The notes below the pieces were generated by a model that worked only from the letters and a program-made list of their open reading frames with translations, had not been told where the DNA came from and made no database searches. The translations under genes were made by a program, and so were the position numbers. A stretch of 64,000 nt of DNA from Isoetes taiwanensis. Lineage: Eukaryota; Streptophyta; Lycopodiopsida; Isoetales; Isoetaceae. Below are positions 29,375-43,385 of the stretch, one piece after another (position 1 is the stretch's first letter; each line of letters starts with the position of its first letter). The stretch is from positions 120,306 to 184,305 of the forward strand of contig JAJEKV010000470.1 in assembly GCA_021234155.1 (NCBI GenBank). Reading direction: 5' to 3'.

Positions 29375-30678
29375 ATGGCGTCTGCAGTTGCTTCTAGCAG
29401 CTTGGCCACATCTTTTGTCCTTGGATCTGGAACAACCAAAAATGCTCTCAGAGACAAGGTCTCTTCTTCCCAGGCCAGAATCCAAATGGTATGAGGCCTT
29501 CAATCTCTTTGATCCTATTTGAATTTGAAGTTTCTTTAAGAGTTGCCTCTTACTTGGGTTTTATGATGAATGTTTTAATGCAGGGCACTGATTTGTGGTA
29601 TGGACCTGACCGTGTTAAATACTTGGGCCCCTTCTCTGCACAAACCCCCTCATATTTGAAGGGCGAGTTCCCTGGTGACTATGGCTGGGATACTGCTGGT
29701 TTGTCTGCAGATCCAGAAGCCTTTGCTCGGAATCGTGCTCTTGAGGTAATTGCACATGCTTTTTGTTTTAATTTTTGTGTAGTTTGGCTGGAAACCAAAA
29801 AATTTGAGTAGTAAGTCACTGTTATTTGTAGATAAACACAATTCTGCCTGGGTGACAGATAATGTATCAAATATTGAATTGTTTTTCATTTTAAGGCCAT
29901 CCAATGTAAAAAGAGGCAATAAATTTCAGGACAGGACCTGACAAAACAGAGCTAATCATAAACAGAGTTTATAAGGTTTGAAGTAGAACCTGTTTATGTA
30001 ACTAAACTTGCTCTGTGTATTCCTAAAACCATGTCCTGACAGATTTGTTAGAACGACATTCAGTTCAATTTCTGAATGTAGAAACAATAAAGAAAACTAG
30101 GAATATGTGCAGGAAAAAAAAACAAGGATTCTGTCTTATAAGTTGCTAACAAGTGTGGTGCATTGCAGTTAATACATGGAAGATGGGCAATGTTGGGAGC
30201 ATTGGGATGCATATTTCCAGAGGTATTGGAAAAATGGGTAAGAGTGGACTTCAAGGAGCCAGTATGGTTTAAGGCAGGGTCACAGATCTTCACAGATGGA
30301 GGATTGGACTACCTAGGCAATCCAAGTCTGGTACATGCCCAAAGCATTCTAGCAGTATGGGCAGTGCAAGTGGTGCTGATGGGTGCTGTTGAGACATACC
30401 GCATCAACGGTCTCGCCGGAGTCGGCGAGGGCGGAGATTTGTATCCAGGAGGCAAGTACTTTGATCCCCTTGGCCTTGCTGATGACCCTGAAACTGCTGC
30501 AGAGCTTAAAGTTAAGGAGATCAAGAATGGTAGGCTTGCCATGTTCTCCATGTTTGGCTTCTTTGTCCAGGCCATTGTCACTGGCAAAGGTCCCCTTGAA
30601 AACCTCTTTGATCACCTTGATAACCCTGTTGCTAACAATGCCTGGGCCTATGCCACCAGATTTGTTCCTGGTGGTTGA
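29375..30678 (+). CDS. Lhcb3: Light-harvesting chlorophyll a/b-binding protein of LHCII type III (Lhcb3), three exons
   Basis: Exons 29375-29488, 29584-29745 and 30169-30678 join in phase 0 with GT-AG introns of 95 and 423 bp, giving 261 residues and a TGA stop. Residues 1-38 are a Ser/Thr/Ala-rich chloroplast transit peptide. The mature part opens [18 protein letters not shown], the short N-terminus typical of Lhcb3, which lacks the phosphorylated Thr stretch of Lhcb1 and Lhcb2. It includes the WYGPDR trimer motif (43-48). Helix B holds E92, H95 and R97. [15 protein letters not shown] (115-129) is Lhcb3-like. Helix C follows (about 148-171). Helix A holds E209, N212 and R214 of EIKNGRLAM, then Q226 and H241. 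These are the chlorophyll ligands and ion-pair residues of LHCII. The product sits in thylakoid membranes in LHCII trimers feeding photosystem II. No frame damage is seen. The start is the first ATG, 5' of the transit peptide. Confidence 0.96.
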
Positions 30679-31950
30679 TACCCTCTTTCTCAAACACACC
30701 ATTTGTAATATACACTCTTAGGAATTTAAAATTGTTGTTGCAACTTTTACCTCCCCCATCAATAGAATCAGATATTCAAAGAATCAAATATTCAAAATTA
30801 GCTATCCAAAGTTATGGTGACCAGGCTTTAAGACCCATGGGGATTCTATAATCAAAATAACTTGACATTTCAATCATTAAACAGCTTAGAGAACCAAAGA
30901 AAAAGAAAAAGATGCATATCCGAATTAAAATAAATTTTAGGAAGGGAAGATGTACAAGGTAGTGCAAAAGTAGGTGGTGTATTCCTAGGATAGGTTATGA
31001 GATACAATCAAATGGCCTATAAGTGAAATGGTGTTCTCATTGAGCTTTGAAAAAACTTCGAATGCAATATGTCTGGCTAATGTAGGGTTGATGGAAGAAT
31101 GATGAAAAGCATATGCTCCGAAGTATAGACAATTATCGAGAGTATTTAATTTGCCAAGCTGCATATAAGTACAATGAGTAAGGCCGGGATGCCCTCAAAG
31201 GAAGGTGCCCCCATTCAACGTCCAAAGCATTATGACAGGAGGTTGACAAAAGGAGTACAGCCGGTCCCGACTCTAGGTGTCCCTATGGACTGTAGAAAAT
31301 GTAAGATGACAAGAAGATTAGGAAAGAAACCTGGCGAAAAGAAAAGACCCGTTTGACATCCGAGGAACGATGTCAAAAAGAGGAAAAAAACTACTCGAAG
31401 GCCACAGGGCCATGCCAAACTGAACATCCAGTTGGTACTGCCTCAAAGGCGAAGTTGTGACCCGAGAATGAGAAAGAGAGAGAGAGAGAGTATACAAAAC
31501 CGGAGGTACTCATGAAATAGAAGTCGAATAGCTGAATACAAACCAATAAAGAAAGCACCACGCAACCACCTCTTGAAAAGGAGGGGAAAGGGAGGGTGGG
31601 AAGCTAGGTGAGATAGGCAACAACCAATAAAACAGCTCCAGATTATGCCGATAGCAAGCAAGGTGAAAAAAGGCATCAATAAGAGGATGTGGTGATATGG
31701 CATCCCCATCCAAGGAATGTCGATTCTATTGCTAGAATCATGGCATTCCTAGGATGGGCCCCGGAGACACAATCAAGTGGTGTGATTTAAGAGAACCTAG
31801 CTCAAACCCGGAGGTGCACTCAAGAAAAATCGAGAAAACATGTGGAGTGTAACGAGGGGTTTTTTTGGGGCCAAAACCATACCCATTTATGGAAGGGGAT
31901 GTTTTTCTTGGTTGAATTCCATATATATAAAAGAAATATGGTAGGATTAT
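30679..31950. other. Lhcb3 3' flank and unassigned sequence
   Basis: The first ~100 bp should hold the 3' UTR (AATAGAATC and AATATTC words near 30761-30795 are possible poly(A) signals). Beyond ~30900 the base composition and style match the DIRS-like region that follows, and a short AG repeat occurs at 31471-31490. No open frame is recognisable. Confidence 0.45.
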
Positions 31951-32099
31951 ATGGAATATGAGGGGTATATTTTCAGGGAAATTTCAGAAAAGGATAATTT
32001 CTCTTTAACCCTATGCACTACATGCTATATAGACTTTTACCTTAGATTGCACCTCCAAGAGCTCAAAGACCAAGATGGCGACTCGTGAGACGCAGCTCC

Positions 32100-32340
32100 T
32101 AAATACCTGAAGAATGTAGTGTGAATGAGAGGAAGCAGAGCGCCAAAGCCCATGGAGGATAAATGTCGGCGGGAATAGAAGTAGTAGCAGATGCAATGGC
32201 TTTATCTCTGCGGACTGCATGGGTGCCAAACTCCGAATGATAAGACGCAAAAGGGCTCAAACCACTAGGAAGCAGTAGCAGCGATATGACAGAGATCACC
32301 GACGCATTAAAGAAGAGAGAAACAAAGGGCCGCGATTCAG
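32100..32340 (-). pseudogene. Tyrosine recombinase, C-terminal catalytic part
   Basis: The minus strand reads SEFGTHAVRRDKAIASATTS followed by IPADI, then in the next frame HGLWRSASSHSHYILQVF. This follows the conserved end of DIRS and related tyrosine recombinases: a GTHS.RRG.AT....G....I..HGRW.S.....YI pattern. The H-x-x-R pair (HAVR) is present. The Arg of the usual GRW is replaced by Leu (GLW), and a shift near 32165 separates the two halves. In a working enzyme the final Tyr would be the nucleophile; which Tyr in HSHYI serves that role cannot be settled here. Upstream, LKTPLPLIAKPPR at ~32690 may be part of the same protein. Confidence 0.72.
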
Positions 32341-35125
32341 GAGGGTCCAAGATGTGAAAGCAACAAACGATAACAAACGCTACAACAAACATGATAGGAC
32401 CAAAAAAAAATGTGCAAGCTTGGCGCGGACCTCCCGACCTAACATTTGTCACATTTGGACCCTTGAACCGCCAAGAAAAATGGAAGTTCACGCTAATTCG
32501 GGATGCAATGCTTTAGGAATACGAAGAAAGCAAGAAAGTCGACCGCGAAAAAGGCAAACTATTATAAGGATCTTCTTAATCGAATTTGTGGTGACGCTGA
32601 AGTACAAGATAACCGACATGGAAAAACATCAAAACATAAATGCACATGCAAAGAATTGTGGATACGAGGCGGCTTGGCGATCAAAGGCAGTGGGGTCTTG
32701 AGAACAAGGAGACGAAGAAAGTTAACCAAGCTATGAAAAGCAATAAGCAACGTAGGCGATCCCTATAAAGCAGGGGATCCGTGATGGGCTTAATACCAAA
32801 GACGAGAAGAATGAAGCGACATGCAAGGAGGAGGCATAAAAAGTTACTGCTTCTTTGAGAGCCTCACTAATGATGAAATGGAGCCAAGTGAAGGAATAAC
32901 TAAGTATGGTAGAGTGAGCCAAGACTAGAGAACAAACAAAGCCGAGGCAAAGAAGAGCAAAAGAAAAGGCAAGCTTATCTGAAAAGAAAGGGAAATAATC
33001 GAATAAGTCAAACTAGAACTTAAAATAACAATGGACATCAAAATAAGTCGACTTTAAACTACCAACTTACAAAGAAAGCAAAAGCGTAACAAAAGGAAAA
33101 ACAGCTTTTATTCGGTCAAAAAACTACATCATAAAGCAAATATGGCCACATAATAATGAAAGCTTGAGAATAGAGAAGAGGGTAGCGAAGGCACTTGAGA
33201 ATTCATGAAAGACTAGTGTGTCCGGGACAAAAAGGTTGCTAGGGAATTGAGGACAAGCAACGGCCACCAAAGGGCGAGAGGACCATGATAAAACAAGCAA
33301 GAAGATGAGCTCTGCAAAGATGAGCATGATGTGAGACTTCATGAATCAAGGAAGGCGAGAAAAGCAATAGTTATTGAAAAAATACTACCATAAAAAAAGA
33401 AGGCGATGGGAGCAATGTGATGCGGATAACTATCCTTATTGTTAAAAACCGCGAAGGGTATTATAAGGACTAGGCAAACCGGCCGCCATTACGCAATAAA
33501 AAACACATCTGGTTGCCCCTAATGAAAGCTATTACACGAGAATCTGTCAATAAAGAAGCTGATCACGTAAAATTTGAAAAGAGCAAAGAGCTTGCTCCAT
33601 ATAAAAGACTGAATGTGAGCATCCACTAAGAAGACAACCATAGAAGGAGAGAGAAGTTCGTAACCGTGATCGTAAATGCCAACCACTCCATCCCTCATCG
33701 CCAAAGATCAAAATCCAAGGTAGACTTGACCCCAACAAAGCGCCACAAGGGAGCTTTATCAAACCGGAAAAATAATGGTCCTTAAAAGATAAATCTCATG
33801 TTTTGCAAGTGGGGATAAAAGAAGTGGGTGTCCCATAGGTCGACAAAATGCGGTCGCCCGGAAACCACAAGACAAGGCAAGACAAAGATGACCTAGGACC
33901 AAGTCAATTTGGACAAAGCCCAGGGAAATGGGCAATCAAATGCTTGAGTGACATATTGGAATGACCCGGTTAATTAGATCGAGAGATAAAACCGATCCCT
34001 CTTGGCTCTGAGAAATGCGAAAGAAACATAAAAGAAGGAACCATGAATAAAACCTAGGAAAATGGTATCGATATTGGCATTTCTTCTATGCTAAGAAAAA
34101 AAACAGCCCGTTGTAAGTCAACAATGATGGGAGGAAGGATTCTGACCAAAGATGCCATTGGTCGCGTTTCTTGGCGCTTGCGGCTAGAGGCGGCAGGATC
34201 CTTGCCCTTCCCAAACCGCTGCGGCAACATTTAAATTCTAGTTTTGAAGCGGGTGTGGCGAGGGTAGGTTAACGATTTCTTGGGTGCATCATTCATCCAC
34301 AAAATAACGATTTACATATTGGAAGCATCTTCAAAGGCTGGGTTCTTGATCTTGCGGTTAGACCACTAACGTGGTATTTCATTCGATGCCTCTTGGCATT
34401 TTCTTGAGCATTATAATCTTGAGTGGCATCCGTCTTTCTTTGCAAAAGATTACGCCAAAAAGCCGCGTGGATGCTTATAAGGTGGAAGGAATTGCTATGA
34501 GGAGGTTTCTTAGCCCTTGTTAAATCTTGCAGTTCTTGTATTTTGTATTGAATCGAGAATTGTTACCATTTCGTCCCATATTTCCTTCCTCCTACTCTTT
34601 CTTTGCTAGCAAGAAAGGTCCAAATTTACAAATGGTATAATAAAAAAATTTCATGTAATGTTTGACAAGAGGCCTCTTTGAATAATTTGGAAACATTGTT
34701 GGTGGATTGAATGAAGGGAAATACTTGGGCTCTATGGCGAAGGCGAGGAAAACGCGGGATTATTCAAATCTTCGAAGCTTGAAAATATTTCCACGAGCAT
34801 CCTAGTGCTATTTCAAGAACAACAATGCTTGAATAGCCACACAAGTCTTTGCTTCTTGCGTGCTTTCTTTTTTAATCTTGATATGCCAAATGCAGTACAT
34901 TCAAATGTGATTTGGACCACCCAAACTTTGCTTTATGTTCTGAAGTTTTCGAAATTCTATGCCTTCCGCTGATTTTGGTGCTCGAGCAATGAGCAAAGCC
35001 ACGTTACTTCTTTCTTCCTCGTGTCCTTGAATATTCAACTCTGCCTCTCCAGGATTAGATGAATCTTTCGGGAGCTTTATTCCTAGCATCTTCTTGTACA
35101 TTACGGTTATTAAACTGGAGGATTT
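32341..35125. other. Interior of the DIRS-like element and LINE-D body, not resolved
   Basis: Minus-strand frames at 33124-33342, 33519-33762 and 32562-32922 are enriched in hydrophobic residues and may be decayed RNase H and recombinase, but no motif is secure. The segment from about 34100 to 35125 should belong to the LINE whose tail ends at 35312, yet I could not recognise LINE protein in it. Confidence 0.35.
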
Positions 35126-35312
35126 ATGCGCTTAATATATATCCAAACTTTTAGGCGAGAAAATAAGTTTCAACACGTAGAGGATGAAGATGTTAAGGTT
35201 TACTCCTGTAGTAATTCTCTATGCATGATGAAGCATTGTATTTCTTATCTCATATATAATATAAAAAAATATCTCGTTCTCTCAAAAAAAAAAAAAAAAA
35301 AAAAAAAAAAAA
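35126..35312 (+). mobile_element. LINE-D: 3' end of a LINE with a 28-base poly(A) tail
   Basis: The segment GATGAAGATGTTAAGG...TGTAGTAATTCTCTA...CATTGTAT followed by AATATAAAAAAATATCTCG and a long A run closely parallels the 3' end at 50.85-50.96 kb. Both end with TTCTC or CCTTC plus poly(A). It interrupts the DIRS-like RT reading frame exactly at 35313. The 5' limit is unknown. Confidence 0.7.
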
Positions 35313-35620
35313 GCAACGTGATGTCACGGATCTCAATGGCGGCCCGACACAAGAACAAGACATCATCCACATAAGATAAGGCACCTATTCCATAACCTCG
35401 GCAAAAGCAAAATGGTTTAACTAATTTGGTAAAGACAATGGAGGCAGAGGCAAGACCAAATGGAAGGATGTTAAAGACGTAAAATTGACCTTGCAACTCA
35501 AATCCTAGGAAAGTGCAGTGAGGGGGTGAAATAGTGACATGATGATACCTTGACTTAAGATTGACCGAAAGGAGGGGATTATCAAAAAGAGTTCAAAAAC
35601 AACAAGTATAGCATGAGACG
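35313..35620 (-). pseudogene. DIRS-like reverse transcriptase fragment
   Basis: Reading the minus strand from 35620, VIPKGQNK is followed across a shift by KFRLM, then VNLKSRYHHVTISPPHCTF and LGFELQGQFYVFNILPFGLA. SASIVFTKLVKP and YGIGALSYVDDVLFL complete the block. The signature LPFGL..A..VFTKL..P, with YHH and LGF spacing, is typical of DIRS/YR retroelement RTs rather than Copia or Gypsy. The first catalytic Asp, normally in VDLKS, is Asn here, whereas YVDD is intact. At least one shift precedes the block, and the frame runs into the LINE poly(A) tail at 35312. Best alternative: a Gypsy-like RT. Confidence 0.78.
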
Positions 35621-35639
35621 AAATTTTGTTTTGGCCTTT

Positions 35640-35917
35640 GGGGATGACACCCAGGGAAACAAAAAGAAAGGACGGGAGGTTGTGAGGACCAAAAGGATTT
35701 GAAGGGGAGAGAAGCGTGGATCGACCGGGACTATAGTTGAATATGTAGCACAATAACAGGGGGTTACTTTTAGATTTTTATACGTTTTTTCACATGGTTT
35801 TTCTATGATTTCGTTGTTGTATTCGTTGAGATGTACTAAATAGTATTTCTAGAGTGCACCCTTTATGGGCCGTTGATTTTTATTGGTTTGGAACAATCCG
35901 AGGGTTGTTGTCTTTCT
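35640..35917. other. Upstream of the DIRS-like RT, unassigned
   Basis: The minus strand contains PVDPRFSPLQ and a stop-broken run leading to the RT. No gag-like protein is recognised further upstream. Confidence 0.4.
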
Positions 35918-36245
35918 GCGCATGTGTTTGTGCATGAACACATGCACATGCTACATGCACATGCATGTGCACATGCAATAGCGTGTTTGTGCATGACAAC
36001 TTTGCAAATGTTTGTGCATGAACATCTTGCGCGTAATGTCATGTGCATGTGCATGTGTGTAGTGCATACACATGCATACACATGCAAGCAGATGTTCATG
36101 CACAAACTGCGTGTTCATTCTTTTAAACAACTGCACATTGCATGTGCACATGCATGTGCATGTGCATGTGCATGTGCGTGCATGTGCATGTGCATGTGCG
36201 TAATGTATTGTGCATGTGCATGTGCATGTGTATTGTGCATGTGCA
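35918..36245. repeat. TGTGCA/TGCATG alternating repeat
   Basis: About 330 bp are dominated by TGCATG, GTGCATGTGCA and CACATGC words, most regular at 36134-36245. The alternating purine-pyrimidine pattern is of the kind that can adopt Z-DNA. Both strands have long open frames of C, M, H and A only, which are composition artefacts. Confidence 0.9.
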
Positions 36246-37743
36246 AAAAAACCCCTTTTTGTTTTCCTTCCTAAAAGATTTGTCATAGATTCAAAAAGAG
36301 TTTAGAGTTTAGGCCCTATGTTTGCTTCCAACTCTTGGATATTCCCTCGGGTGCGAATTGTTCATAGCGGCCGGCCTTTAGCTTCAATCAACAAAGCGGA
36401 TTCTTATGCACACAAGGCCCGGATTATTCCGCCCTTTTCCATATCCGTAGATCAGGTCAAGCGGTGGCCACAAGAATGCATTTATATTGTAGGTTTGGAA
36501 CTTTAATCGAACCATAAGGTGAATCATGCATTACCTTTAAGCTAGAGATGGAGCATCCAAAATCATATGGATTGATAAACAATGGTGTCATTGTGAAAAG
36601 AAATAGTTGTAGCGGAAGTAACAATATGTAGCATAATACTTGAGGGGTTTTCTTTGTATTGCAAACTTTATAACTTCGAGAATAATGGGATCAATACGCT
36701 CTATCTTTTATTGTAACTTTTACTTATGTTCTATTTGCTTTATTGTGATCAAATTCAAAAGCTATGGGATGAAAGCCTCAAATGAATTCTAGTTCGTGCA
36801 AAAATACAATTATGAGGCATCCAACATATAAAAATTAAATCCCCCAACACATAACAACCATTGACATTAACAACCAACACATAACTACCAATGACATTAA
36901 TTAACACAACCATTGGGTCCAACACATTTAAATTAAAATCCCCCTTAAACCCCCTTTGGTTTGGGTGCATATTCACACGGGGGGTGACTCCGGGCAGCGA
37001 GAGCTGTTGGATAGGCATATTCACCCCTTATTCCTTAATCTAAACCGTACGTAAAGTTCCTCGTTTGTGGGGTATGCAAGTACAAAATTTGCTATACATA
37101 ACAAGATTTGCAAAATACTATAAGATTTCAAGCAGGGGCATATTCTATGCCAAGATGAGGGATGATTAAGGTAAATGGAGGACACTCTGAAAAGAGGCAC
37201 AAGTCATAAGTAACAAAACCATCACATGCAAAGTGAAAAAAGTCGATGCATGACAACCAAGCACATGTGGCCCAAATAATCAAATTGTTGGATCAAGATT
37301 ACAAAACTTAAATCTACCTAATGACATTCCAGACAAAAACCAAACAACCCTAGCTACCTAGCACATTTAGCACGCTAAAACTTAAACCAAAATAAACTAG
37401 ATAACATGCATCTAAACAACATGCAACAATTGATGCTTTAGAAAGAAAACGATGGACAAAACAACAAGCTCGCATAGAGTAGAAGGCCTTAAAAATGTCG
37501 AACAATCCTATAAAATTAAACCAACCTATGTCTAGGGCAAACACATAGCCCATTACAATACGCATACTCTAACAAAAATCTTATGTCCACAAACTAGCAC
37601 AATCCTAAAATAAATAATTCCCAATACATTTTAACAAAGACCGGGGACAAATTCCATACAAATGCCCAATAAATCCTTTGAAAAAAAACTAAGATTCTAT
37701 AAACAACAAACAACATTTTATCTCTCAAACAAAAGAGATTGCT
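36246..37743. other. No gene recognised; small repeat at 36840-36930
   Basis: AACACATAAC(A/T)ACCA(T/A)TGACATTAA is present twice in a row. The rest is AT-rich unique-looking sequence with short frames only. Confidence 0.6.
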
Positions 37744-38142
37744 TTGATTACAAAAAACAAGAGATGGAAAATTGTTGATGAAAGGGAGGCGATGAATCAA
37801 GTACCGGTTTCTAGAAAGAATGGGGCTAGTCACGAGGAACCAAAGGACACTGGAGGCAAAATTGAAGGCGAGGAGCACAAGAGCATCAGCTTAGTTCGTA
37901 ATTGCGGGGATCGGTCACGATGGCCAAAACATATCGCAAAAAGTGCAAAATGGGCGAGCACCGGACCGCATGAGGAAAATCGAGAATGGGAGGTTGTGGA
38001 GGAGAAACGGGAAGAAGATGGCATAGATCTAGAAGTAGCCATGAAATCTCAGATTAGGAGTTGGCAGCGGATGGCGTTAATCCTTATGTGGACGCCAATC
38101 GGCAGCGTGGTCAACTTGGCGGGTGGTGTTAATCAACTATAA
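37744..38142 (+). CDS. Hypothetical protein, 132 codons, doubtful
   Basis: An open frame of 132 codons starting MITKNKRWKIVDEREA, rich in charged residues, with no family I recognise. It lies ~800 bp upstream of CACTA transposase remains on the same strand and could be part of that element, or chance. No splice sites or promoter support it. Confidence 0.2.
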   Translation: MITKNKRWKIVDEREAMNQVPVSRKNGASHEEPKDTGGKIEGEEHKSISLVRNCGDRSRWPKHIAKSAKWASTGPHEENREWEVVEEKREEDGIDLEVAMKSQIRSWQRMALILMWTPIGSVVNLAGGVNQL

Positions 38143-40420: not shown

Positions 40421-40990
40421 ATACTATTGTCATGATAAGAGACTATCATCGATTGAACCTACATTACTGTATCACTATTATATTTTTCCCACGGATGAAT
40501 AAGAAAATACTTTGACATGCTTATTTTTGTATATTCAAACCATTAGGCAACATTAGTATTGCACAACTCCATAGGGTGATTTCGCCATTCACGACGACTT
40601 AGCGAAGTCAAATCGTTGTTACGAGTCTCGCAATGCCCGAACAATGTGGCGGTGAATCCCGTTCGGGCGTGTATGCTGGTTATGACACAGGATTCTACGA
40701 AATTTGACCCTACAAGCCACGAAACCAAGAGCTAGGATATTTTGTTTTTATAAGGACGAACAAACACATAGTTGTGGCATCAGGTGCCTTAAAAATATCT
40801 TGTCAATAATAGTAAAGGAAATATTTTCTATTCAAATAGTAAAGAAAATACATAGTCGTTCTGAAATGATAGGCTTTAGGCATCAGATAGACACTAGTAA
40901 TGGTGCCCAGCGTTGCTGGACATAAGTTGGGAACCTGTGTGGATGGAATCTTGTTCAATTCAGACTCCTCATAAAAAGGTTTCTGTGCAT
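40421..40990. other. No gene recognised
   Basis: Sequence 3' of the CACTA remnant with short frames only. CACTAGTAATGGTGCCC at 40887 has a CACTA start but no supporting second end. Confidence 0.45.
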
Positions 40991-40999
40991 TCTGACATC

Positions 41000-41109
41000 C
41001 TTCCCCTTCCTTTCGCCTTTTGCTCTCTCTCCATTTCTTTTTTTTTTCTTATTTTCCTACACACTTTCCTTTTTTCCTTTTCCTTTTTTCTCAATTTTGC
41101 TTGCTATAC

Positions 41110-41189
<80 letters not shown>

Positions 41190-43385
41190 GAGCTCTCTAA
41201 CTCGCTTCTCCTTCTCTTCCCTTTTCCCTTCCCCTTTTTCACTTTTCTTTTTTTTTGGTGGACTTTTTCCCTTCCCTTTTCATCCTTTTCCCATTTTTCC
41301 CTTTCCTTTTTTCCTTCCTTTTCCTTTTCCTTTTTAGTTTCCCTTTTTCCATGCCCTTTCTTCATTCTCTTTTCCCCATATTTTCATGTACCCCTTTTCT
41401 TCCTTTCTCCACCCTCTTCCTCTTTATCTCTCTCCCCCCCCTCAACTTTTTCTCTTCTATTTTCCTATTTCTCTTTCCCATTTTTCCCTTCCCTTCCCCC
41501 TTTTTCTCCCTTTTCCTTTCCCTTCCCTTCCCTTTTCATCCTTTCCCCACCCTTTCGTTTTTTTTTCCGTGCCCTTTTTTCCTTTCCTTTCCCACTTCTT
41601 TTTTTATTTTCTCTTTCCCTATGTCTCTTTCCATTCTCTTCTATCCACCTTTTTTTTATGTGCCCTCTTTTTTGTTTTCCCCCACCCTCTTCCCCTTTTT
41701 CTTTTTTCCCTTTTCCACTTCCCCTTTCCTCTTTTCTTTTTCGTTTCCCATGCTTTTTTTACGTTTTTGTTTTTTCCTCCTCACCCTTTCCTTCTTCCTT
41801 TTTTCCCCGCGCCCTTTCCCCGTTCCTCTTTTTCCATTCCTTGCTCCCCACCCTTTTCCTGTTTCCTTTTTTTCCCTTTCATTTCCACATTTTCTCACCC
41901 TTTCCCTCTTTCCCTTTTCTCGGTGCCTTTTTATCTTCCCTTTCCCTCTCTCTTCTTTTTTTTCTTTCCCTTTCCCTTTTCCCATGCCATTTTTCCGTTC
42001 TCTTCTCCTCTTTCCTTACCATTTCTCTCCTTTTCCCCCCTTTTTCTATTTCCCATTTTCATGTGCCCTTTGCCCTTTCCTTCTTCCCCTTTTCCTCGTG
42101 CCCTTTTGCCAGGTTCTCTTTTCCCTTTTCCCTCTCCCTTTCCCTTTCCCTTTCCCTTTCCCTTTCCTTTCCCTTTCCCTTTTTCTTTTCTTTTCCCATG
42201 CCTTTTGTTCGTCCCCTCTACCCACCATTTTCCTGTTTTCACTTACCTTTTTCTCCTTTTCCCACCTTTTCCTTCCTCCCCCTTTTCTAGTGCCTTTTTT
42301 CCTTTCCCTTTCCCCCTCCCTTTTTCTATTCCTTTTCCCCTTTCCCTTCTCTTTTCCCTTTTCTTTGCCCTTTTTCTCTTCCCATTTTTCCCATGCCATT
42401 TTTCCCTTCCCTTTCCCTTTCGTTTTTTCTCTTTTACCCGTGCCTTTCCTCCCCTTTCCTTTTCCCTCTTTTTCCTCTCCCTTTCCCCTGAACAAATCAA
42501 ATCATGATCAATTCATAATGGTGGAAAGTCGTGCGATAAATCTCGGCCTTCAGGTTCAATCATATGATCTCAGCCATTCAAATTAGGGCTTAATCCATCC
42601 AATACAGTATAATTTTTTTATGTGCCCCTTTTTTTTTCTTTTCCCCACCCTCTTTCCCTTTTTCTTTTTTCCCTTTTCCACTTCCCCTTTCCTCCTTTTC
42701 TTTTTTCGTTTCTCATGCTTTTTTTCCCTCCTCACCCTTTCCTTCTTCCTTTTTTCCCCGCGCCCTTTCCCCGTTCGTCTTTTCCTCTTTTTCCATTCCT
42801 TGCTCCACATCCTCCTTTCATTTCCACATTTTCTCACCCTTTCCCTCTTTCCCTTTTCTCGGTGGCTTTTTATCTTCCATTTCCCTCTCTCTTCTCATGC
42901 TATTCCCATGCTATTTTTCCGTTCTCTTCTCCTCTTTCCTTACCATTTCTCTCCTTTTCCCCCCTTTTTTCTATTCCCTAATTTCATGTGCCCTTTGCCC
43001 TTTCCCTCTTCCCCTTTTTCCTTTCCCCTTTTCCTCGTGCCCTTTTCCCAGATTCTCTTTTACCCTTTCCCTCTCCCTTTTTCTTTCGTCCCCTCTACCC
43101 ACCCTCCTGTTTTCCCTTACCTTTTTCTCCTTTCCCCACCTTTTCCTTCTTCCCCTTTTTCTAGTGCTTTTTTTCCTTTCCCCCTCCCTTTTTCTATTCT
43201 TTTTCCCCTCCCTTTTCCTCTTCCCAATTTTCCCTTGCCATTTTTCCCTTTCTTTGCCCTTTTTCTCTTCCCATTTTTCCCATGCCATTTTTCCCTTCCC
43301 TTTTGTTTTTTCCCTTTTACCCGTGCCTTTCCTTCCCTTTCCTTTTCCCTCTTTTTCCTTTCCCTTTCCCTTTCCCCGGAAGAGA
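41000..43385. repeat. 2.4 kb polypyrimidine block (C and T on the + strand)
   Basis: Apart from one ~120-bp island of normal sequence at 42485-42612, the + strand is almost only C and T, in TTTTCCC, CCCTTTCC and TTTTTCC patterns. Long open frames in all three + frames (up to 443 codons of F, P, S and L) and in the minus strand (K, E, G, R) follow from the lack of stop codons in such DNA and are not genes. The block contains a 73-bp CT dinucleotide run and an internal duplication. Confidence 0.93.
41113..41185. repeat. (CT)n microsatellite, ~36 units
   Basis: Uninterrupted CT dinucleotides over about 73 bp. Confidence 0.97.

Follow-up and report, generated by a model that had tools for sequence, protein, structure and literature searches.

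The retroelement in the window and its first description

The window, a stretch of 64,000 nucleotides from the quillwort Isoetes taiwanensis (G000:C186:120306-184305), carries on its minus strand the decayed sequence of a retroelement, in which reverse transcriptase (RT), RNase H and tyrosine recombinase (YR) are represented and which extends from 30981 to at least 37466. It is very probably the remnant of a PAT-like tyrosine-recombinase retrotransposon of the order DIRS, of a kind abundant in this land-plant genome and inserting as proposed below. Its frames are broken at several points, and two later insertions interrupt it. The RT block LPFGLASASIVFTKL...YVDD is found at 35317-35592 (minus) and matched Pfam RVT_1 with E=3.2e-05, at 24.2 bits and thus below the curated cut-off of 29.6. 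The recombinase end at 32011-32512 (minus) contains GTHAVRR and, in a different frame, HGLWRSASSHSHYI, and it resembles the GTHAGRRGG...HGRWRSASSHSRYI of a genomic copy; the two broken recombinase pieces gave no match in Pfam. When genomic copies were compared with the window by tblastn, E values of 5.8e-30 (RT) and 7.4e-17 (YR) were obtained. The best scores were 112 and 73.6 bits for RT and YR, respectively; 30 local shuffles reached at most 26.6 and 25.0 bits, and the reversed stretch 20.4 and 16.9 bits.

The first-pass annotation had placed a DIRS-like element at 31950-35760, with an RT and a recombinase end on one strand in the expected order. Both were found on the minus strand in that order, well above the shuffled and reversed controls, and the predicted HAVR is present within GTHAVRR, with the terminus reading in a different frame. 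An element does occupy the proposed span, but it is larger, and about 34133-35315 inside the span is a later insertion. The Asn reported in place of the first catalytic Asp of the RT is seen in the window copy but is peculiar to it: the Asp is invariant in all six aligned genomic RT frames, so the Asn reflects decay of this copy. The kind of element and its land-plant host were borne out, the architecture narrowing the kind to PAT-like.

Genes, repeats, ends and junction of the genomic copies

The genome searched comprises 1,658,258,908 bases in 1110 contigs. The 92-residue RT piece of the window used as a query gave 4684 first-look candidates, and 47 of the best 150 matches listed (window included) lie in open reading frames (ORFs) of at least 400 residues, the longest being 767. 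For scale, first-look candidates numbered 13,394 with a Gypsy integrase model and 13,951 with a Copia RT model. One open YR frame used as a query gave 2247 candidates and 123 listed match rows, 122 of which were used for pairing. A listed RT was found 0.5-2.1 kb upstream on the same strand for 60 of these 122 YR matches (0.02 expected), and no opposite-strand RT occurred within 6 kb of a YR among the listed matches. The 60 pairs are a lower bound because each search scored its best candidates only. Eight 10-kb loci (L009-L016), all drawn from the RT list, were fetched; seven were selected while no YR was yet known in them, and L012 once its YR had come to light. All eight have a YR after the RT and on its strand; the recombinase reading thus recurs beside the RT, and failure to do so had been named at the outset as evidence against the element. 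Searches of viral contigs and of genome contigs confirmed no non-plant relatives.

The combination expected of the DIRS order, RT, RNase H and YR in place of a DDE integrase, was recovered in the open frames, where the RNase H models were weak and below cut-off and neither DDE integrase nor protease families appeared among the Pfam matches. RVT_1 matched L010 over its curated cut-off (E=4e-16), as did Phage_integrase in L012 (4.1e-09), L016 (6.8e-10) and L014 (6.5e-09). A PHROGs integrase was matched with E=4.7e-14, and over 277 positions the YR profile matched Tre (E=0.0011) and Cre (0.0033 at best). H-x-x-R is in register, as is the C-terminal Tyr in two Cre chains, and we take both to be catalytic in Cre. 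The YR frames carry LRISEAL, H-x-x-R, HGRWRS and SRY, the last two missing from the L009 frame. Six aligned copies show strong conservation of the stretch that follows RNase H, HHVDRFASP.N..LPV.NT...DAF.YDW...FPPP. A Gag CCHC motif, C-x2-C-x4-H-x4-C, was recognized by eye in L010, L015 and L016, the Pfam zinc-knuckle being sub-threshold in L010 and L016 and unmatched in L015. A fusion of ALOG to the YR was considered and rejected, as Pfam found no ALOG in the four YR frames given to it; the genome has seven ALOG matches (surroundings not inspected).

The RT tree was built from the window RT, eight YR-linked RTs, eight Gypsy RTs and two Copia RTs, all of the same genome. A tree with a row for a long interspersed nuclear element (LINE) showed a long branch and lower support (61/84 for the YR-linked branch) and was rebuilt without it. 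In the rebuilt tree the window RT and the eight YR-linked RTs fall together on a single side of a branch supported at 83/94 (not starred), and Gypsy (97/93) and Copia (100/99) RTs form branches of their own. Grouping of the RT with Gypsy or Copia, the other outcome that the first-pass annotation held to speak against its reading, was therefore not seen. The highest identity of the window fragment in this comparison is 65%, to a YR-linked RT.

When the copies are combined, the order is A1, Gag with the CCHC motif, RT, RNase H, the conserved stretch, YR, B1, A2, a spacer and B2, where A1/A2 and B1/B2 are direct repeats. Such split direct terminal repeats had been suggested as something to look for in other copies, and all four repeats, in the arrangement A1-genes-B1A2-B2 that characterizes PAT-like elements, were present in five of the eight fetched loci (L010, L012, L013, L014 and L016), which span 6.0-7.9 kb. 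The remaining loci are incomplete: in L011 the A pair is accompanied by a truncated B2, L015 shows only its B pair, and no clear A1 was seen in L009. A1 and A2 are 98-100% identical in five of the six loci showing both and 90% in the sixth, B1 and B2 are 97-100% identical (six loci), and the A2-B2 spacer ranges from about 0.5 kb (L010) to 0.7 kb (L014). The long inverted terminal repeats with internal complementary regions of DIRS1-like elements were not found: a repeat search of four loci (L009-L012) returned no inverted pair of at least 30 nt, and self-blastn of all eight gave inverted matches of only ~45-56 nt, which link the hairpin-bearing A repeats to each other. The sense strand of the five complete loci is pyrimidine-rich throughout (60-66%, with 14-18% A), and their flanks have 45-49% pyrimidine. 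The purine-rich plus strand of the window at 31-34 kb agrees with this.

The same genome carries hundreds of such copies. The A-repeat motif, which forms the inner hairpin in one subfamily, occurs exactly at 893 sites (428 + 465), and the reversed pattern at none. A higher count with up to two mismatches (1405 forward and 1390 reverse) was discarded, as it counts sites twice: the motif is close to self-complementary, and a single mismatch suffices for an exact site to be matched on the other strand as well. At G000:C273:118890-129851 (L029, L030, L049 and L050), a stretch of 10 kb holds three A motifs of the same orientation. Two of them come from a single element, and the flank of the third is unlike B1, so that motif pairs there can be misassigned.

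The ends were read in pairs of A motifs taken from the first 100 listed sites; 17 pairs were fetched, one was dropped because its two matches came from different copies, and 16 were used. Edges were set by eye, and flank letters matching by chance leave a doubt of 1-3 bases in L010 and L016. The left end is AAT in 15 pairs and TAT in one and, with six whole loci added, AAT in 21 of 22; an A stands two bases before this core in 17 of the 22 (p=5e-05, 12 positions, uncorrected). B2 was read in seven pairs and cut off in one. The right ends of these seven pairs and of five whole loci are AAT in 11 and AAC in one, and 12 of 14 end at the core once the deviating L011 and L015 are included. A longer duplication has no room in the 12 fitting copies because element letters reach the core from either side. 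Of the two empty sites compared, one gave a clean 3-base core and the other an 11-base duplication. In the former, two intact copies of the LINE that the C19 element had entered match its joined flanks at 100% (86 nt), with a single AAT and no other duplication. The absence of a target duplication beyond the core, as expected of the DIRS order, thus holds with L011 as the exception.

The B1/A2 junction, folded as single-stranded DNA, gave z values of -8.61 (L010), -7.35 (L014) and -6.43 (L016) against shuffles. In the fold output for 33 stretches just downstream of YR frames, a hairpin was seen by eye in 28, the weak ones including L076, L096 and L100, and was not seen in L085, L087, L092, L097 and L099. 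By a criterion fixed after the folds had been viewed (at least 8/12 pairs in the outer stem and at least 6 in the inner), the two-part hairpin passes in 30 of 39 loci (37 with a candidate; none in L080 and L099). The AAT core is located at the inner end of the outer stem. Five arm types vary in letters and still pair, the shape of stem and inner hairpin being kept while the letters change. Standard pairs make up 83.8% of the 17 distinct arm pairs, against a mean of 69.6% and a maximum of 78.9% in 2000 partner shuffles, a statistic whose anchors were picked for maximal pairing and whose shuffles ignore relatedness. Since the B1A2 junction can fold into this two-part hairpin, the elements combine split direct repeats with short inverted arms. 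The hairpin is the least expected part of the element, and may have been described in the original Goodwin and Poulter papers.

Extent of the window copy and its later insertions

By blastn against other copies, the window aligns over 30981-37466, perhaps to 38038, with two gaps filled by repeats; the left end A1 of the window copy was not found in the comparison with the fetched copies.

Table 1. Parts of the window copy and the sequences inserted into it
Feature	Window positions	Strand	Basis
Right end, repeat B2, terminating ...CCTATCCTAGGAAT at 30981	30981..31055	-	84% over 75 nt to L010 B2 region
Repeat A2 (internal repeat of left-end sequence)	31590..31747	-	73% over 150 nt to L011 A1 620-766, E=5e-14
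B1/A2 junction	31703..31761	-	Inner hairpin flanked by inverted arms GGGCCCATCCTAGGAATG and CATTCCTTGGATGGGG; sequence and pattern matches
Tyrosine recombinase, broken across frames; GTHAVRR and GLWRSASSHSHYI in separate frames	32060..33012	-	tblastn E=7.4e-17 and 3.5e-9
Remainder of RT, RNase H, methylase-like region, broken	33188..34132	-	tblastn pieces; blastn to L011:4880-5603, E=5e-67
Later insertion with poly(A) end (35284-35312), foreign to element, edges approximate	34133..35315	+	Absent from L010 and L011
RT catalytic block, LPFGLASASIVFTKL and YVDD; NLKS versus DLKS of other copies	35317..35679	-	
Second later insertion, CATGTG microsatellite, foreign to element, edges approximate	35680..37131	.	
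5' end of RT frame	37131..37466	-	blastn to L010:3837-4172, E=1.7e-13; tblastn 37122-37193
Possible Gag remnant	37384..38038	-	57.6% over 688 nt to L010:3453-4111, E=3.8e-15

At the right end, the arm pattern was matched with 3 mismatches at 30981-30997, and a weak continuous match joins 30981-31816 to L010:7149-7927 (E=1.6e-33). ATTCCTTGGATGGGGA is exact at 31703-31718, within A2; with 3 mismatches allowed the pattern is near chance in the window (shuffle mean 0.99). The core AAT of the junction is at 31745-31747, and 32060-33493 aligns with L010:5691-7166 (E=2e-95). The Gag protein match in the window was no better than shuffles (27.3 vs 27.3 bits). Both interruptions contain repeats: the first has 783 first-look candidates in the genome, and in the second 36270-37120 is a high-copy repeat with 2424 first-look candidates, its best other copies being 93-95% identical. 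Some copies of the latter have a second, inverted piece about 63 bp further on. Positions 35730-36067 are 85% identical to L009:33-357.

The closest relative of the window copy is L002 (for which G000:C1025:669756-671205 is also named), with 93% RT identity and the same insertion adjoining at 91%; judged from these sequences, the two may be a duplication of a single, already interrupted element. An ORF for a chlorophyll a/b-binding protein (Pfam E=4e-39) ends at 30678, the right end of the element being ~300 bases beyond. On the other side, the plus strand has a pyrimidine-rich tract of 2.4 kb at 40985-43378 (91% at 41001-42000) with an internal near-duplication. A second element at 40.9-43.4 kb was considered and rejected, the weak L014 alignments being put down to this long tract.

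Proposed insertion, rival explanations and known systems

Working copies would make RNA, which would be copied by the element's own RT and RNase H. The internal B1/A2 junction would then serve as a template joining both ends, giving a circle with the junction ...CCTAGG-AAT-GCC..., and the recombinase would recombine the AAT of the circle with a chromosomal AAT, preferably in A-N-AAT. The product would have A1 at the left, B2 at the right and one AAT at each edge, with no longer target duplication. Gene order, split direct repeats, AAT edges, the lone AAT at one of the two empty sites and the conserved junction hairpin were observed; the RNA intermediate, the circle and the role of the YR as the inserting enzyme we infer. 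It is conceivable, though rather unlikely, that the circle junction acts as a folded attachment site, integration proceeding via the hairpin (single-stranded or cruciform) recombined at AAT, by analogy with the attC sites of integrons; such a junction form could lie between PAT and DIRS1. Inverted arms around the core would equally be expected of a double-stranded recombinase site, and the fold is a predicted one. Forms intermediate between the PAT and DIRS1 architectures were not observed by Szitenberg et al. 2014 (PMC4157794).

Several observations weigh against a PAT-like element inserting in this way. B2 was not found in eight of the 16 pairs, so deviating right ends may be under-counted. 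L011 is flanked by an 11-bp direct duplication, TTGCCAATAAT, and its B2 is short of the last 12 nt; at its empty site TTGCCAATAAT stands once in the LINE without the insertion (best match 100%, 91 nt) and twice in the L011 flanks. We read this duplication as an exception, produced by repair of a staggered exchange or by another route. In L015, B2 diverges from B1 before the AAT. AAT at both edges would by itself be compatible with a 3-bp target duplication too; the single AAT inside the B1/A2 junction favours recombination. Among the proteins, the L009 YR frame is under the Phage_integrase cut-off (24.8 vs 27.1 bits), a single YR frame found no recombinase in PDB by phmmer, and the Dam methylase match is below threshold (E=0.072 in L013 and 0.29 in L014), with none reported in L010 and L015. 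Likeness to Pat1 is one of anatomy, and the RT tree, made of sequences from this genome, contains no named DIRS, PAT or Ngaro reference.

A decayed Ty3/Gypsy element next to an unrelated or chance recombinase-like reading would agree with the Ty3 RT that leads the PDB matches of the RT. Placement of the window fragment by itself (92 residues) among the Gypsy RTs comes at a cost of 4.1 log units and is not formally rejected by the approximately unbiased (AU) test (p=0.074). Such a Ty3/Gypsy element is nevertheless very improbable, given the YR that follows the RT in all fetched loci and in the 60 listed pairs with no listed opposite-strand pair within 6 kb, the split direct repeats in place of long terminal repeats and the separate RT branches. 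We regard a Ngaro-like element, with split direct repeats and no methylase-like domain, as unlikely: the sub-threshold Dam match, missing in some copies, would suit it, as would internal repeats downstream of the YR, which are known from Ngaro and Viper (PMC4157794), but the stretch after RNase H is strongly conserved in the six aligned copies and is the site of the Dam matches in two. Contaminant algal or fungal DNA in the assembly can be virtually dismissed, since the window copy ends close to the chlorophyll a/b-binding gene and other copies are found on scaffolds of up to 53 Mb and inside LINEs repeated across scaffolds.

The PAT-like retrotransposon remains the preferred identification. 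If it is true, a land plant with numerous YR retrotransposons would form a link between algae and land plants, and a whole order may be overlooked when the repeats of such genomes are annotated; the conserved junction hairpin would make the integration step testable in vitro. The first-pass annotation considered such elements little described in vascular plants. Reviews differ on their presence in plants. One of 2022 excludes DIRS from land plants and knows them only from green algae (PMC9033089), whereas one of 2019 states that plants have DIRS elements. For Ceratopteris 361 elements are listed, and the rows for Arabidopsis thaliana and A. lyrata in a table of PMC4157794 start with 0, which by the table note we take as YR matches. 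The word DIRS is absent from the main text of the Isoetes sinensis paper, and a literature search for DIRS with Isoetes and genome gave two matches, on other matters by title (supplements not searched in either case).

PAT elements are distinguished by split direct repeats and a methyltransferase (MT) domain and Ngaro elements by the absence of the latter, whereas inverted terminal repeats and a circular junction of 3 bp mark the DIRS1-like elements (PMC3266345, PMC4157794, PMC6681497). By architecture, the quillwort elements would be placed as PAT-like within the DIRS order and not as DIRS1-like, on account of split direct repeats, the Gag CCHC, a direct YR and internal repeats downstream of the YR. 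These features they share with the echinoderm form of Pat1, also reported from Volvox (PMC4157794). Unlike echinoderm Pat1, they reside in a land plant, their B1/A2 junction also has inverted arms and an inner hairpin, and their A2-B2 spacer is 0.5-0.7 kb. The PAT elements of the green lineage, Kangaroo of Volvox and TOC of Chlamydomonas and other algae, resemble them in split direct repeats, RT, YR and lineage; Kangaroo has an inverted YR and both are without a Gag zinc finger (PMC4157794), whereas the quillwort YR is direct in all eight fetched loci and the CCHC is present. With DIRS1-like elements they have in common RT, RNase H, YR, the AAT core and the lack of target duplication, the 3-bp circular junction of the former being often AAT (PMC3266345) and 23 of 28 annotated elements starting and ending with NTT, mostly ATT (PMC3266345, PMC4157794, PMC6681497); they differ in having split direct repeats and only ~15-nt inverted arms, at the junction. 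They also differ from the ALOG-type DIRS elements, complete forms of which Iyer and Aravind 2012 did not know from streptophytes (PMC3537659), in showing no ALOG match in the YR frames.

Finally, the junction can be set beside the integron attC site, as a comparison of how the two might work. The AAT of the quillwort elements is at the inner end of the stem, unlike the attC cut triplet, which presumably lies in the outer R-box, and use of the quillwort site as a single strand would be hypothetical. The likeness consists in a two-box stem topped by a variable hairpin and served by a tyrosine recombinase, attC being cut at an AAC triplet (PMC11641012).

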